DNA from: Acidobacteriota bacterium
Lineage (GTDB): Bacteria; Acidobacteriota; Terriglobia; Acidiferrales; UBA7541
Direction: 5' to 3'
Length of the DNA stretch: 10,396 nucleotides
Assembly: GCA_003131705.1 (NCBI GenBank)
Contig: PKUY01000185.1
Coordinates: 7,687-18,082 of the forward strand
Shown: positions 5,628 to 10,396 of the stretch, in pieces
How the letters are laid out: each line of letters opens with the position of its first letter
Position numbering within the stretch: the stretch's first letter is position 1
Program-made: the position numbers and the translations under genes
The notes under the pieces: model-generated
The model's input: only the letters and a program-made list of their open reading frames with translations
Databases searched by the model: none
Told to the model about the DNA's origin: nothing

Positions 5628-5633
5628 AGGGTG

Positions 5634-5933
5634 ATGCCAGAGCAGCTGAAACAACAGGTGCAGATCAAAGCCGATGAAAAAGAATTACTCGGCCAGTATT
5701 CCAATCTTGTCGTGGTCCATCATAACGCCGAGGAATTCACGCTAAACTTCATTTACATGTATCCGACGGTACCGCAGGGGAAGCTCGTTTCCAGCATCAT
5801 CGTGAACCCCACGCACGCGAAAAGGCTCCTGCGCGCTTTGCAAGAGAATGTGACGCGATACGAAGCGCAATTCGGTCCGCTGCCAGAAGGTCCGGGACCC
5901 GGCCAGGAGCCGAATGTGGGTTTTATTCAATAG
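5634..5933 (+). CDS. DUF3467 family protein
   Basis: This 99-residue cytosolic protein matches the DUF3467 pattern: an acidic/Gln-rich start, then QYSNLVVVHHNAEEFTLNFIY, a hydrophobic turn, KLVSSIIVNPTHAKRLLRAL and the helix QENVTRYEAQFGPL, closing with a Pro/Gly-rich tail. Family members are about 90-110 residues long and widespread in bacteria, and their biochemical function is not known to me. The 'V.NP.HAKRLL.AL..N...YE..FG' segment is the most conserved part. It has no membrane segment or signal peptide. The gene stands alone: it diverges from the Nramp-like gene and converges with the PilZ gene, so context gives no functional clue. The family call is confident; the role is unknown. Confidence 0.85.
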   Translation: MPEQLKQQVQIKADEKELLGQYSNLVVVHHNAEEFTLNFIYMYPTVPQGKLVSSIIVNPTHAKRLLRALQENVTRYEAQFGPLPEGPGPGQEPNVGFIQ

Positions 5934-6013: not shown

Positions 6014-6343
6014 TCAGTCGGCTACGATCCAGCTTCCAGTGGTCTCTACGAACTCAAGACCGACGGCGAACCCCGCCTGAGGAACCATTTGGCAATACGC
6101 GACGCGCGCGACTGAGCGAAACGTCCCCGCAAGAGTGCTGAGAACCAGCTGGTCATTGATCTTCCACCGGCGCGTGCTCAGGACGCGCGCGCCCCGCGAG
6201 CTCACGTTCTCCGTGAATGTAGCTTCGGTGCCCGGAAGCACCGCGTGACCGCTGATATGAACTCCGATTTCCATCGGAATGCGTGATTCACTTCGCAGTA
6301 CGGTGAAACTTTTAGTTTTGGGGAGCCCCATCCCAAGCGCCAT
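6014..6343 (-). CDS. Single-domain PilZ protein (cyclic dinucleotide receptor)
   Basis: The 109-residue cytosolic protein consists of one PilZ domain. The two signature elements are present: RxxxR (R17-S-E-S-R21) and (D/N)xSxxG (N46-V-S48-S-R-G51). In PilZ proteins these wrap around c-di-GMP. The rest is a beta-barrel pattern (RIPMEIGVHISG, TFTENVSSRGARVLS, FRSVARVAYC, AGFAVGLEFVE). With no output domain attached, it probably acts by contacting a partner protein when ligand is bound. The start ATG 6343 has a G-rich ribosome binding site about nine bases upstream. The gene begins 21 bases after the stop of the GGDEF gene on the same strand, so enzyme and receptor are very likely co-transcribed. 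Because that GGDEF may make a mixed dinucleotide, the ligand here could be c-di-GMP or cGAMP; the sequence alone does not decide. Confidence 0.85.
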   Translation of the reverse strand: MALGMGLPKTKSFTVLRSESRIPMEIGVHISGHAVLPGTEATFTENVSSRGARVLSTRRWKINDQLVLSTLAGTFRSVARVAYCQMVPQAGFAVGLEFVETTGSWIVAD

Positions 6344-6364: not shown

Positions 6365-7663
6365 TTACAGGCAGGCTGCGACGTGCCCGAGACGTATGTT
6401 CCCTACTCCCCGCCCCTTCATTTTATAGAGCGCCAGGTCAGCGGCGCCCAAAAGCTGCTCGATAGACGTCCCATCTTCCGGATAAACTGCCTGGCCCACG
6501 CTGACTGTGATGAAGGGCTCCAGACCGTCGTGCGCAAGGCTCTCGCAGATCCGCGTGGCCGCCTGTTCGGCGTCGCTCCCGCCCGTTTCCGGCAGGACGA
6601 GCGCAAACTCGTCGCCGCCGTAACGCGCGGGCGTGTCAATCGCCCGGCTGCCGCTTCGCAGGACCTCTCCCAGACGCTTGATCGCGCGGCTTCCCGTTAG
6701 ATGCCCGTACTTGTCATTGATTTTTTTCAACTCATCGAGATCGAAGAGCAGCACGGCAAAGTTGCGCCGAGTCCGGCGGGATCGTTGGATCTCATTCTCA
6801 ATCGCTTCGAGCAGTCGGCGATGATTTGCTAAACCGGTCAGCGAATCCGACGCGGCCATACGACTCACTTGATCGAAAAGCTGGGCATTATCGAGCAGCG
6901 TTCCAGCGAGAACGACAACGTAGCTCAAGACCATGATAACGTGCGCGAGCATGAAAGGCGCATCGAGCACGCGCTGAGACTGGCTGATCGTAATGTGGCA
7001 GATCACGTTCAGTCCGGCGGCGATAAAGAGGGCGCGATCGAGAGCTGCATTCGCGCGGCGAAGCCGCCACCCGAATCCCAGCGTGGCGACCACGTAAATC
7101 GCCGCGGGAAGCAGGTCCCACAGCCGCGGCACGAAAGCGCCGGGCTGAATCTTCGGCGCACGCGGCAGCATGAAATAGAAAATGCTCGACAGGTAGGCGA
7201 TGGCTCCCACGATGAGCGTCGCACCGGCGATTTCTTTTCCGGGATCGCGCGATACAGGGATCCGATGTTCGACTGCAAGCGCGGCAATCAGGAGCATTCC
7301 CAATAGTGTTCGCCCCGCGAGCCATCCCAGAGAGATCGTATCTCCACCAACGGGCGTCACGAGCATTCCGCGATAGAACGCCATGCTCGTCCCGGCTTCG
7401 ATCAGGCCGGCGACCACGAAACCGAATGCAAGAATCAGGGAAATTCGGTCGTGGGTTCCGCGAAATCGCACCATCGCGTTCGCGGCAAACGTGAAAGCGA
7501 CCAGGCTGCCTGCCATCTCGATATAGGCATCCAGGAGCGGATCGGCCAAATAGGAGGAAGAGCGAAGAGTCCACAGAAGAAAGCAATACGCCGCCGCGAC
7601 AAGCGTCCCAACCAGGACGAGCCGAAGCCGGTATTCTCCCCAAGATTTGCCCGGAAGACCCAC
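6365..7663 (-). CDS. Multi-TM GGDEF nucleotidyl cyclase, candidate Hypr type
   Basis: From GTG 7663 the protein has 432 residues: about eight membrane helices (about 13-257), a short linker, then a GGDEF domain (about 270-425). The active-site loop is RYGGDEFALVLPET (GGDEF at 349-353). The first metal-binding Asp lies in FDLDELKKIND (D308), and the product-inhibition I-site RxxD is present as RAID (340-343), five residues before GGDEF. DSLTGLANHRR marks the domain start. The usual GHxxGD motif reads GHLTGS: the residue equal to PleD Asp344, which contacts guanine, is Ser325 (codon at 6691-6689). That exchange is the known signature of Hypr GGDEFs, which use ATP as well as GTP to make 3',3'-cGAMP. 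The membrane part is a probable sensor of unknown ligand. An upstream in-frame GTG at 7741 would add 26 non-hydrophobic residues and has a poor ribosome binding site. A PilZ gene follows directly. Confidence 0.88.
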   Translation of the reverse strand: MGLPGKSWGEYRLRLVLVGTLVAAAYCFLLWTLRSSSYLADPLLDAYIEMAGSLVAFTFAANAMVRFRGTHDRISLILAFGFVVAGLIEAGTSMAFYRGMLVTPVGGDTISLGWLAGRTLLGMLLIAALAVEHRIPVSRDPGKEIAGATLIVGAIAYLSSIFYFMLPRAPKIQPGAFVPRLWDLLPAAIYVVATLGFGWRLRRANAALDRALFIAAGLNVICHITISQSQRVLDAPFMLAHVIMVLSYVVVLAGTLLDNAQLFDQVSRMAASDSLTGLANHRRLLEAIENEIQRSRRTRRNFAVLLFDLDELKKINDKYGHLTGSRAIKRLGEVLRSGSRAIDTPARYGGDEFALVLPETGGSDAEQAATRICESLAHDGLEPFITVSVGQAVYPEDGTSIEQLLGAADLALYKMKGRGVGNIRLGHVAACL

Positions 7664-7672: not shown

Positions 7673-7768
7673 AAAACAGATGCTTTGTCCGACGGCTAAG
7701 TAGCAGCAACCGGTATGCCGATCTGAAACCGACCGGCCCACCGTCTAAATCTACTATTTCCTGAGCGA

Positions 7769-7873: not shown

Positions 7874-8119
7874 CTACGGTTTGGGGGCTGTTGGGGGGAC
7901 TGCCGGCGGCAAGTCGTGGGCCTGTATGACGCTCTGGAAGTTCATTTTCTTGTGCGCGCCGTCGCAAAACGGCTTGGTTTCTGAGTGTCCGCAGCGACAA
8001 AGGCCGATCTTGTTGCGGCCACCAAGGCCGAATGCCTTGCCATCTTGATCCTTGATTTCAAAGTCGCCTTCGACTCGAATCGAACCATCGTTGCGAACGG
8101 TTATCGTTGTAGCGGCCAT
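7874..8119 (-). CDS. CDGSH iron-sulfur domain protein
   Basis: The 81-residue protein carries the CDGSH [2Fe-2S] signature CxCx2(S/T)x3PxCDG(S/A/T)H as CRCGHSETKPFCDGAH: ligands C41, C43, C52 and H56, with Ala in place of the usual Ser. The three-Cys one-His ligation holds a redox-active, labile [2Fe-2S] cluster. The N-terminal part (TITVRNDGSIRVEGDFEIKD) is the beta-strand lead-in common to short bacterial members, and the C-terminus is a Pro-rich tail. It has no membrane anchor, so it should be cytosolic. AGGGAGG lies five bases before the ATG. It starts 25 bases after the MoeZ-like stop, as the last gene of the sulfur-carrier operon. This suggests a role in redox or in iron-sulfur supply tied to sulfur mobilisation, but that is inference from position only. 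Confidence 0.9.
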   Translation of the reverse strand: MAATTITVRNDGSIRVEGDFEIKDQDGKAFGLGGRNKIGLCRCGHSETKPFCDGAHKKMNFQSVIQAHDLPPAVPPTAPKP

Positions 8120-8144
8120 TCAATCCTCCCTAGAGTTTCGCGAA

Positions 8145-9341
8145 TTAGTACTTCGGAACGGTCGGGTCCACTTCGTCCGACCAGGCGAGAATACCACCTT
8201 TCAAGTTCCATATTTTTTTGAAGCCGGCTTTTCGCAGGAAGTCCACGGCATCGCCCGAACGCTTTCCCGTGCGGCAATGTGCGACGATCTCGCGAGAGCT
8301 GTCCAGCTCGTGCACGCGGCGCGCAAGCTCTCCGAGCGGGATCAGGTGCCCGTTCAGATTGCAGATTTGGTATTCGTGCGTCTCGCGCACGTCAAGAATG
8401 AAGAGATCCTCCCCGCGATCGAGGCGCGCTTTCATATCTCGCGGAGTGATTTCCGGAAGATTCGTTGTCGTCACTGGCGCATCCTCACCGCGAATGCCGC
8501 AGAACTCGACGTAGTCGATCAGCTTTGTGACCGTGGGATGCTCGCCGCAGACCGGGCATTCGGGATTCTTCCTCAACTTCAACTCGCGGAATTTCATCGC
8601 GAGCGCATCAAACAGCAAAAGCCGGCCGACGAGCGGCTGACCGCTTCCCATAACCAACTTCAGTGTTTCGGCGGCCTGAATCGTGCCCACGATCCCCGGC
8701 AGCACACCGAGCACCCCGCCTTCGGCGCAGGAGGGAACCAGGCCCGGCGGAGGGGGCTCGGGATAAAGGCACCGGTAGCAAGGCCCGCTCGGGTAACCGA
8801 ACACGGTGATCTGGCCTTCGAACCGGAAAATCGAGCCATACACATTGGGTTTTCCAAGCAGCACGCAGGCGTCGTTCACCAGATAGCGCGTGGGAAAATT
8901 GTCCGTACCGTCCACGACGATGTCGTAGTCTTTCATGATCTCGAGCGCATTCTCACTCGTCAGGTGCGTCTCGAAAACATCGATCTGGATATCCGGGTTC
9001 AGATTTCGCAGGCGCTCGGCGGCAGCCAGGGTCTTTGGCCTGCCGACGTCGCTCGTCCCAAAGAGAACTTGGCGCTGCAGATTCGTCAAATCGACGTTAT
9101 CAAAATCAACCAATCCAATGCGTCCCACACCTGCTGCAGCGAGGTAAAGCCCCAGCGGCGCTCCGAGCCCGCCCGTGCCGATGCAAAGCACCTTCGCGTT
9201 CTTGAGCTTGAGCTGGCCGTCCATGCCCACTTCCGGCATGATCAAGTGTCGGCTGTAGCGCAGCACTTCCTCTTTCGACAGCGTCGCTGCCGCGGCTTTG
9301 GCTGCTGGCGGAGCCGACGGAATTCCCGTTTTCGTAGCCAT
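8145..9341 (-). CDS. moeZ: MoeB/ThiF adenylyltransferase fused to rhodanese (MoeZ type)
   Basis: The 398-residue protein is an E1-like ThiF/MoeB domain (about 21-280) joined to a rhodanese domain (about 295-398). It adenylates the C-terminal glycine of a ubiquitin-like sulfur carrier and then delivers sulfur to make a thiocarboxylate. Visible motifs are the nucleotide loop GTGGLGAP (55-62), DFDNVDLTNLQRQ (79-91), DGTDNF (144-149), and the structural zinc cysteines C188/C191 (CYRC) and C262/C265 (CPVC). A cysteine in the crossover region, C205 (PSCAEGGVLG), is also present. The rhodanese persulfide site is CRTGKRS (C356). The length matches MoeZ/MoeBR proteins (about 390 residues). A disordered Ala/Pro-rich head precedes the first helix. 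GGGAG lies seven bases before ATG 9341. The carrier gene is 37 bases upstream, which strongly links the two. It could also serve molybdopterin or tRNA thiolation carriers encoded elsewhere. Confidence 0.94.
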   Translation of the reverse strand: MATKTGIPSAPPAAKAAAATLSKEEVLRYSRHLIMPEVGMDGQLKLKNAKVLCIGTGGLGAPLGLYLAAAGVGRIGLVDFDNVDLTNLQRQVLFGTSDVGRPKTLAAAERLRNLNPDIQIDVFETHLTSENALEIMKDYDIVVDGTDNFPTRYLVNDACVLLGKPNVYGSIFRFEGQITVFGYPSGPCYRCLYPEPPPPGLVPSCAEGGVLGVLPGIVGTIQAAETLKLVMGSGQPLVGRLLLFDALAMKFRELKLRKNPECPVCGEHPTVTKLIDYVEFCGIRGEDAPVTTTNLPEITPRDMKARLDRGEDLFILDVRETHEYQICNLNGHLIPLGELARRVHELDSSREIVAHCRTGKRSGDAVDFLRKAGFKKIWNLKGGILAWSDEVDPTVPKY

Positions 9342-9378
9342 CCAAATTCTCCCGTTTCGCTGCTACTTCGAACTTAGT

Positions 9379-9663
9379 TCAGTTGCGTGCGCCACCGGCG
9401 ATCGAGGGCACGATGCTCACCGTATCGCCGTCGCGCACGGCGGTCTGTTCCTTTTGGAGGTAGCGGATATCCTCGTCGTTCACGTAGACGTTCACAAAAC
9501 TGCGCAAGCGGCCGTCGTCGGAGAAGAGGTGCTTCTTCAGCTCCGAGAATTGACTGGTCAACGCTGAGAGCGCCTCGCTGACCGTCGTCGCCGCTACTTC
9601 GATACTCTCTTGCTTGCCCGCATAGGCCCGCAGCGGCGTCGGAATGATGACTTTAACTGCCAT
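9379..9663 (-). CDS. cysO: ThiS/MoaD-family sulfur carrier protein, CysO-like, with capped C-terminus
   Basis: This 94-residue beta-grasp protein is close in length to CysO of M. tuberculosis. The first strand is AVKVIIPTPLRAYAGKQESI, the helix is TVSEALSALTSQF, and the region FVNVYVNDEDIRYLQ is followed by the common 'V.DGD.VSIVP.IAGG' ending. The di-glycine that should be the activated terminus is not last: the protein ends in GGARN, so three residues must be removed before adenylation by the MoeZ-like enzyme. A JAMM peptidase is encoded just upstream. AAGGAGG lies seven bases before ATG 9663, which settles the start. It sits 92 bases after the peptidase stop and 37 before the MoeZ-like start. 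MoaD (molybdopterin) or ThiS (thiamine) roles are possible, but the neighbouring cysteine synthase and peptidase favour the CysO role. Confidence 0.88.
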   Translation of the reverse strand: MAVKVIIPTPLRAYAGKQESIEVAATTVSEALSALTSQFSELKKHLFSDDGRLRSFVNVYVNDEDIRYLQKEQTAVRDGDTVSIVPSIAGGARN

Positions 9664-9755
9664 TCGCCGTCCTCCTTGTCGATCTATTGCTGATGAAACC
9701 TGCGAAAACTCGCCCGGCGACCCCCGATCGGGTACTGACTTCCGGAGGCCAGACA

Positions 9756-10205
9756 TTAGATGCTCGCGGGACTCCCCACGGTTTCGATCTCTTCGGGATC
9801 GTATGCGGCGCGGTCGTCGTGCAATCGCCAGGACGTTGTATCGCGCGATTCGCCCTTCTGGATGCTCACGATGATGTAGCTGTACCACGGCCACGCATGG
9901 TCGCGGTCGAATTCACTGGGGCGCGCCGGGGCATCGGGATGGGAATGATACCACCCGATCAGTTCGATTTTCTTTTCGCGCGCCGTTTTCTCCGCGAGGC
10001 GTACGTCGTCGGGCGTCACCTCAAAGCGATTTCGCGGCAAATCGTCGCGGCGGTTTGCGAGCGGCAGCAGGTCGATCACTTCGCGCGACGCGTCGCCGTC
10101 GCGGCCAAGCAGCGCGCCGCAGCATTCGTGCGGATACGTCTCCACGCCGTGTGCGTGAATACGGCGAAGGAGCTCGTCCTGAATCTTTAGCGGCGCTCTG
10201 TTCAC
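9756..10205 (-). CDS. mec: JAMM/MPN+ zinc metallopeptidase, Mec-like
   Basis: The 149-residue protein is a single JAMM domain. The zinc-binding and catalytic pattern is complete: a Glu in [11 protein letters not shown] (E27), then [14 protein letters not shown], matching HxHx7Sx2D (H87, H89, S97, D100). Prokaryotic stand-alone JAMM enzymes cut at the C-terminal glycine of ubiquitin-like sulfur carriers. Mec of M. tuberculosis releases cysteine from CysO-cysteine, and QbsD-type enzymes trim extra residues after Gly-Gly. Both jobs make sense here because the next gene encodes a carrier with three residues beyond Gly-Gly. The start is GTG 10205, which overlaps the TGA of the cysteine synthase by four bases (GTGA) and has GGAG six bases upstream, a classic coupled start. 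Metal ligands are intact, so activity is expected; the exact substrate is inferred. Confidence 0.9.
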
Positions 10206-10396
10206 GCTTCGCTCCAGAATCTCTCGCTCAAATATTTTTCGCCGGAATCGGGAAACACCGTCACGACCACCGCATTTTCTCCCTCTGGCAAACGCCGGGC
10301 GACGTCCAGGCATGCCCAGAGCGCACCGCCCGCGCTTACGCCCACGAGAATTCCTTCTTCCCGCGCGAGGCGTCGCGCCATCTGTTGCGCGTCTTC
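10202..10396 (-). CDS. cysM: Cysteine synthase, 3' end (partial, CysK/CysM family)
   Basis: Only the last 64 residues are inside the window; the start lies beyond 10396. They read as the C-terminus of an O-acetylserine/O-phosphoserine sulfhydrylase of the PLP-dependent fold-type II family. [20 protein letters not shown] is the helix and Ser-Gly-rich PLP-phosphate region near the end of the fold, and [18 protein letters not shown] is the nearly invariant closing motif with the conserved PDSGEKYLS. The stop TGA (10204-10202) overlaps the start of the JAMM peptidase by four bases, so translation is probably coupled. That coupling and the CysO-like carrier downstream point to the CysM type that takes sulfur from a protein thiocarboxylate, not free sulfide. 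CysK and CysM cannot be told apart from this fragment. Confidence 0.87.
10212..10215 (-). promoter_or_regulatory. Ribosome binding site inside the cysteine synthase gene, setting the JAMM start
   Basis: GGAG on the minus strand ends six bases before GTG 10205, within the final codons of the cysteine synthase. It supports the overlapping GTG start over any start further upstream in the synthase reading region. Confidence 0.5.

Follow-up and report, generated by a model that had tools for sequence, protein, structure and literature searches.

The reverse strand of the window (the whole 10,396-nt stretch of DNA analyzed here) carries a gene for a GGDEF protein whose GHxxGD motif reads GHLTGS, followed by a gene for a small PilZ-domain protein. 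The locus raises the question of which cyclic dinucleotide the enzyme makes and which protein reads it. A first-pass annotation had taken the Asp-to-Ser exchange as the mark of a hybrid promiscuous (Hypr) cyclase of the GacA type, which would put 3',3'-cGAMP signaling under the control of an eight-helix membrane sensor. We put at roughly 0.7 the probability that the product of this gene is a GGDEF cyclase of the Hypr type, bound to the membrane, which makes 3',3'-cGAMP with some c-di-GMP, the PilZ protein being the likeliest local receptor.

Domain make-up and active site of the cyclase

The source genome (G000) comprises 3.94 Mb in 441 contigs and is 81% complete. The open frame of the cyclase is unbroken and encodes 432 aa when read from the GTG at 7663; the reading frame continues upstream as far as a GTG at 7741. 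Among the best 120 listed relatives, whose lengths range from 369 to 480 aa, 432 aa was the most frequent (46 of 120), and the start at 7663 is therefore likely, but not certain. Both domains scored over their Pfam cut-offs (MASE3, PF17159, 42.2 bits versus 31; GGDEF, PF00990, 131.5 bits versus 23.8), which places the protein among the MASE3-GGDEF proteins. The membrane sensor foreseen by the first-pass annotation is thus recognizable as MASE3, but a hydropathy scan gave six clear membrane segments and so did not confirm its eight helices.

In pairwise HMMER alignments, the GHLTGS of the cyclase coincided with GHLVGS in the GacA domain of Geobacter metallireducens (6d9m) and with GHxxGD in WspR and IsPadC. 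When GacA and four relatives were aligned with it by MAFFT, the G324 and S325 columns were invariant. The equivalence to PleD D344 was placed through the GacA, WspR and IsPadC alignments together with the numbering of the papers, PleD (1w25) itself being among the matches. The AGC-encoded serine does stand where the annotation had put it, at the PleD Asp344-equivalent position that is also serine in GacA. The KIND, GGDEF and RAID motifs that it had described as intact were likewise all found, as Asn316 of KxxND, RYGGDEF and RxxD. Two additional features fit a Hypr enzyme and went beyond that annotation, namely GGDEF rather than GGEEF and His281 at the cross-dimer site. The cyclase therefore combines Ser at the PleD Asp344 site, a central Asp in the signature and a cross-dimer residue other than Arg, the last of which is a usual Hypr criterion and not a strict one. 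The coordinates of these features are collected in Table 1.

Table 1. Features of the cyclase and PilZ genes, with positions in the window
Feature	Position	Strand	Basis or remark
MASE3-GGDEF cyclase gene	6365..7663	-	432 aa; predicted Hypr-type active site
MASE3 membrane sensor domain, residues 44-254	6902..7534	-	PF17159 E 9.4e-11; hydropathy
GGDEF domain, residues 270-419	6407..6856	-	PF00990 E 3.1e-38; TIGR00254 139.4 bits
Ser325 codon AGC, base-specificity position (GmGacA Ser348, canonical Asp)	6689..6691	-	Alignments
His281 codon CAT, cross-dimer position (GmGacA Tyr304, canonical Arg)	6821..6823	-	Alignments
Asn316 codon in KxxND, sugar-face contact	6716..6718	-	Asn in 121/121 (query and best 120 listed)
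RAID, I-site RxxD motif, five residues ahead of GGDEF	6635..6646	-	Motif intact
GGDEF signature; central Asp fits what the Goldilocks model demands alongside Ser	6605..6619	-	GGDEF in 121/121
PilZ-domain protein gene, 109 aa, candidate receptor	6014..6343	-	21 nt downstream of the cyclase, same strand

Conservation, sequence rules and origin of the Ser-type family

Conservation was assessed over 121 proteins, made up of the query plus the best 120 listed of 6395 protein matches. The specificity position was Ser in 111 and Thr in 10 of these, the cross-dimer position was His in 120 and Tyr in one, and all 121 had GGDEF, the Asn of KxxND and both charged residues of RxxD. Since the query and its best 120 listed relatives are without exception Ser or Thr, the residue is beyond chance and Ser325 is no sporadic mutation. 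The same alignment bears on the alternative explanation of a catalytically dead GGDEF domain that works as a sensor by binding nucleotides, for which it can be said that Ser departs from the commonest motif. With Asn, GGDEF and both RxxD residues kept throughout the 121 proteins, and with the degenerate GGDEF paralogs of these genomes looking different (TAWSL replaces GGDEF), we regard this explanation as very improbable.

Of the 19 further genomes of the genus, 16 had an ortholog at 69-82% identity (partial in two cases), so that the gene is present in 17 of 20 genomes when G000 is included. The three genomes with no cyclase match were G009 (82% complete), where the contig stops within the neighboring PilZ gene and absence is uninformative, G016 (55% complete) and G017 (96% complete), from which the cyclase is gone. 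Close relatives that carry names are labeled Candidatus Acidoferrales, Acidiferrales, Terriglobia or Acidobacteria bacterium, with one protein record labeled Verrucomicrobiae.

According to the available part of an earlier study, natural Ser/Thr enzymes carry GGDE[F/Y] exclusively, Ser combined with GGEEF is inactive, and Hypr enzymes have another residue in place of the cross-dimer Arg that 94% of predicted diguanylate cyclases carry (PMC6456294). These rules were scored on 283 distinct GGDEF domains, of which 8 were short or uncovered and 275 were usable; the rows were collected by similarity to the candidate and to GacA, and are thus related sequences rather than a random draw or an independence test. 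Ser or Thr occurred in 180 of the 275, every one of them with GGDE and none with GGEE. In this similarity-gathered set, Arg was found at the cross-dimer site in none of the 179 covered Ser/Thr domains (His 126, Tyr 32, Ser/Ala/Gly/Thr/Phe 21; one uncovered). Among the 90 Asp-type domains the cross-dimer residue was Arg in 71, and the signature was GGEE in 70, GGDE in 17 and neither in 3; the remaining 5 of the 275 had other residues at the specificity position. Judged by its sequence, the candidate obeys all three Hypr rules.

Five D-to-S mutants of canonical enzymes have been described, four of which, with GGEEF, were inactive; the D-to-S mutant of GSU3350, which has GGDEF, was still a pure diguanylate cyclase that made c-di-GMP only (available part of PMC6456294), so Ser together with GGDEF is not sufficient for Hypr activity. 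That mutant lends some weight to the view that our enzyme, too, is a pure diguanylate cyclase despite its Ser, with GTP as its sole effective substrate and a PilZ protein that reads c-di-GMP. We think this unlikely, since Asp is absent from the query and its best 120 listed relatives, Thr, the other Hypr residue, takes its place in 10 of the 121, and the Arg that favors c-di-GMP is missing from the cross-dimer site of the Ser/Thr domains.

The histidine that stands there instead leads to a related alternative, a promiscuous enzyme that leans toward c-di-GMP in the cell and makes cGAMP as the lesser product. Two Arg-bearing Hypr enzymes, Cabther_A1065 and Ddes1475, yield more c-di-GMP than other Hypr enzymes, as reported in the accessible text of PMC6456294, and the cross-dimer His, if charged, could favor guanine as Arg does and so act partly like it. 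His is not Arg, however, and in Ser/Thr lineages elsewhere in the phylum the site holds Tyr, Ser or Ala, which are residues of enzymes that make mostly cGAMP (same source, in part); a Cabther_A1065-like balance of products therefore seems to us less probable again than a pure diguanylate cyclase.

To see how common such domains are, eight genomes (G000 and seven selected from the genus and family) were scanned for PF00990 matches, with split matches merged and one G021 match with an internal stop left out. Of 87 domains that covered the specificity position, 71 had an intact GG[DE]E. Ser or Thr occurred in 21 of these 71 intact domains, with at least one in each of the eight genomes, as compared to the 0.17% that the Hypr type makes up of all GGDEF domains in the part of PMC9140294 available. 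The Ser/Thr domains of the eight genomes fell into two sorts, one belonging to a GacA-like protein and the other to the family of the candidate itself. The first sort comprises L232, L233, L235, L237, L238 and L220, which have Ala at the cross-dimer site, and the cut L009 of the source genome; both of those scanned for an input domain, L232 and L237, have GAF. The inputs of the candidate's family are MASE3 (as in L128, at 26.8 bits below the Pfam cut-off of 31) or receiver-PAS (as in L135, which comes from a different genome of the genus). Among the other classes of Acidobacteriota, best matches to the GacA domain (30 loci in 199 genomes) had Ser in 28 cases and Gly in 2, and GacA-type genes are therefore widespread in the phylum.

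Several other variants were seen in the course of these searches. The source genome has a second Ser-type GGDEF gene (L009/L145, on G000:C137), which is GacA-like, has GHLVGS and GGDEF, and is cut by the contig end. Two loci of the GacA clade (L166 and L167) have Gly at the specificity site (GHMTGG and GHMVGG) together with GGDEF and a cross-dimer Ser, a third state of the site. The degenerate paralog with TAWSL is itself conserved and occurs in all eight genomes (L012, L247-L251, L253 and L254).

The main tree was built from 134 domains after removal of three trait columns. Domains shorter than 140 aa (118 for L009) were excluded, and 28 loci were omitted (L006, L007, L010-L015, L145, L039, L051, L073, L080, L081, L093, L125 and L244-L255), of which L039, L051, L073, L080, L081, L093 and L125 were long-branch rows and L244-L255 degenerate; the 71 loci L025-L095 were represented by 21 and the 120 listed proteins by 4, near-copies among the rest being left out. 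With a bootstrap that had not settled, the candidate's family formed a clade with support of 100/97 and joined at 98/84 an Asp-type clade with cross-dimer His and GGDEF, while the GacA clade, which contains L009 of the source genome, stood apart from it (81/98, not starred). A quick first tree of 131 selected rows, again with three trait columns removed, likewise kept the two Ser/Thr clades apart. The nearest Asp-type neighbors of the family are long GGDEF proteins with Asp at the specificity site and His at the cross-dimer site, such as L002, a GAF-GGDEF-HD-GYP protein; proteins of this kind were found at L002, L118, L119, L121-L124, L212, L213, L218 and L223, and L221 has Asn at the specificity site (GHLEGN). 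The presence of a cross-dimer His in the Asp-type clade as well (L002, L118, L119, L121-L124) weakens the Hypr reading of the candidate.

Taken at face value, this topology would mean two origins of Ser, or a single origin followed by reversion to Asp, and it suggests a second origin of Ser apart from GacA. A tree constrained to hold all 60 Ser/Thr rows in a single clade was just 3.5 log units worse (AU p 0.446), which does not reject a single Ser/Thr origin, and proof of independent origin was thus not reached. It is tempting to speculate that the Hypr site arose a second time here, from an Asp-type ancestor that had His and GGDEF and for which Asp to Ser was the last step, that its line later came to be coupled to MASE3 as well as to receiver-PAS inputs, and that one branch gained a dedicated cGAMP-reading PilZ protein. 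We hold this full sequence of events to be doubtful; if it is true, the dedicated protein would be a PilZ-type cGAMP receptor.

The PilZ gene and other possible receptors

PilZ domains are known c-di-GMP receptors, a fact that in itself speaks for the pure diguanylate cyclase discussed above. The PilZ motifs RxxxR and (D/N)xSxxG were kept in 19 of 19 aligned rows, with R17, R21, S48 and G51 invariant and the second motif headed by Asn or Asp. PF07238 matched 16 of the 19 rows at E values up to 10 (best 1e-6), the window's own copy being among those without a match. An AlphaFold model had six beta strands, in keeping with a PilZ barrel, with a mean pLDDT of 75.8 for the best of five models and 40.7 for the worst, and residues 1-18, including the first Arg of RxxxR, were poorly modeled. 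Matches of the PilZ alignment in the PDB to designed repeat proteins (6g6o and others) were taken as chance.

A PilZ gene lay on the same strand, 12-86 nt downstream (match end to match end), in 19 of 20 cyclase loci from 19 genomes. The exception was L115, a divergent second cyclase copy in G023; the other copy in that genome (L126) has its PilZ gene. A contig fragment of G014 holds the end of the cyclase and then PilZ. None of 18 loci of cyclase paralogs (L127-L144, with short flanks) had a PilZ gene alongside, and the idea that PilZ is tied to the whole cyclase family was rejected, since it adjoins the orthologous locus only. Strict dependence of PilZ on the cyclase was rejected as well. 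G017 preserves the order ThiF-CDGSH-PilZ with about 310 nt left between CDGSH and PilZ (L264:1324-1635), and because it lost the cyclase yet kept PilZ, the pairing is not obligatory. This persistence weakens the Hypr reading and fits a PilZ protein that reads c-di-GMP from a pure diguanylate cyclase. G017 also carries the GacA-like Ser-type gene L232, and the ligand of its PilZ protein could be c-di-GMP or cGAMP from another source.

Window positions 7874-10313 encode a CDGSH iron-sulfur protein, a ThiF-rhodanese protein, a JAB protease and a small protein that, judged by eye, is a MoaD/ThiS-like carrier, a set that we take to resemble a carrier-protein cysteine or sulfur pathway. A gene that, judged by eye, is cysteine synthase-like occurs in the same CDGSH/ThiF neighborhood at L265 (2137-3087). 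In G024, which retains its PilZ gene, such a gene and another reading frame separate PilZ from CDGSH, a further point against strict pairing with the cyclase. Convergent to the PilZ gene is a DUF3467 gene (window 5631-5933), which is retained in most of the relatives' loci examined.

A riboswitch was considered as an alternative local receptor, the c-di-GMP-I family including the cGAMP riboswitch type. No c-di-GMP-I riboswitch was found in the window using all of Rfam at E up to 1. None was found in the 81% complete source genome, and GEMM-I (RF01051-type) riboswitches were found in 0 of the 20 genus genomes, in searches in which the positive controls were silent. The same model matched 10 of 151 genomes of the class under stricter filters, two of them in the same family, which indicates that the model works. 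On these searches of the window, the source genome and the 20 genus genomes, a c-di-GMP-I riboswitch as the local receptor was rejected. The lack of such hits in the 20 genus genomes, together with the position of the candidate's family outside the GacA clade, also weakens the Hypr reading. The c-di-GMP-I type riboswitches of the class (L146-L163) are in some cases tandem (L148, L149).

Six HD-GYP and eight EAL matches were found in the source genome, some of the EAL matches being pieces of one gene, and enzymes for cyclic dinucleotide breakdown therefore exist there. The Myxococcus HD-GYP enzyme PmxA prefers cGAMP, according to the available part of PMC8844925.

Proposed mechanism and relation to known Hypr enzymes

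Despite the points against it, the GacA-type interpretation offered by the first-pass annotation gains support from conservation across relatives and is, on sequence grounds, the best reading of the active site. Hypr-type activity of the cyclase is likely in our view, and from it we infer cGAMP production in this organism. The proposal is built on observed motifs, conservation and gene linkage, from which we infer substrate use, products, signal, receptor binding and co-transcription. The MASE3 membrane domain would read a signal and set the pairing of two GGDEF domains. By analogy with GacA, Ser325 would admit either base, guanine or adenine, Mg2+ would be held at the proper distance by the central Asp of the GGDEF motif, and His281 would span the dimer in place of the guanine-favoring Arg without enforcing guanine. 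The predicted output is 3',3'-cGAMP plus some c-di-GMP. Binding of the latter to the RxxD site may restrain the cyclase through product inhibition. The PilZ protein, probably encoded on the same transcript as the cyclase, is predicted to be the most likely local receptor.

GacA (GSU1658, Gmet_1914; 6d9m) resembles the candidate in its Ser specificity site, the central Asp of GGDEF, the Asn contact, RxxD and a cross-dimer residue other than Arg, and the GGDEF domains are 42% identical. The two differ in input, which is a MASE3 membrane sensor in the candidate and a response receiver and GAF in GacA (PDB title), in the cross-dimer residue (His versus Tyr) and in falling into separate clades of the tree. 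The candidate also has an adjoining PilZ gene, and no c-di-GMP-I riboswitch was found in the 20 genomes of its genus. The same genus also holds GacA-like GAF-GGDEF proteins (L009, L232, L233, L235, L237), which share Ser, GGDEF and the Hypr type with the candidate, but lie in the GacA clade and have a cross-dimer Ala where covered (L009 is uncovered there).

The prefix Cabther presumably denotes Chloracidobacterium, an acidobacterium. Cabther_A1065, compared here by description only, is a Hypr enzyme of the same phylum that differs from the candidate in having Arg at the cross-dimer site and making more c-di-GMP; it has been assayed before, and its recognition as a Hypr enzyme is credited to Hallberg et al. 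2016 (available part of PMC6456294). Bd0367 of Bdellovibrio and GSU1937 of Geobacter also have Ser at the specificity site, and GSU1937 is membrane-linked as well, but the latter has GGDDF and transmembrane HAMP domains, the former controls gliding exit from prey, and the partial descriptions at hand name no adjoining PilZ gene for either. Hypr enzymes are thus a described class with an acidobacterial member already known, and the candidate is a probable variant within it. Titles and opening lines of abstracts, mainly from the open-access literature, contained no report of the candidate's family or of a cGAMP PilZ receptor.

What the locus adds is what looks like a membrane sensor making the rarer signal cGAMP beside or instead of the common c-di-GMP. 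In a genus whose 20 genomes gave no c-di-GMP-I riboswitch, a PilZ gene that stays next to a probable cGAMP cyclase makes its product a direct receptor candidate. The natural His and Tyr variants of the family and the neighboring Asp-type clade form a set for studying how GGDEF enzymes gain the use of adenine. Finally, the proportion of Ser/Thr domains in the eight genomes, set against the overall figure in the part of the literature available, suggests that this soil lineage may use cGAMP routinely as a signal.
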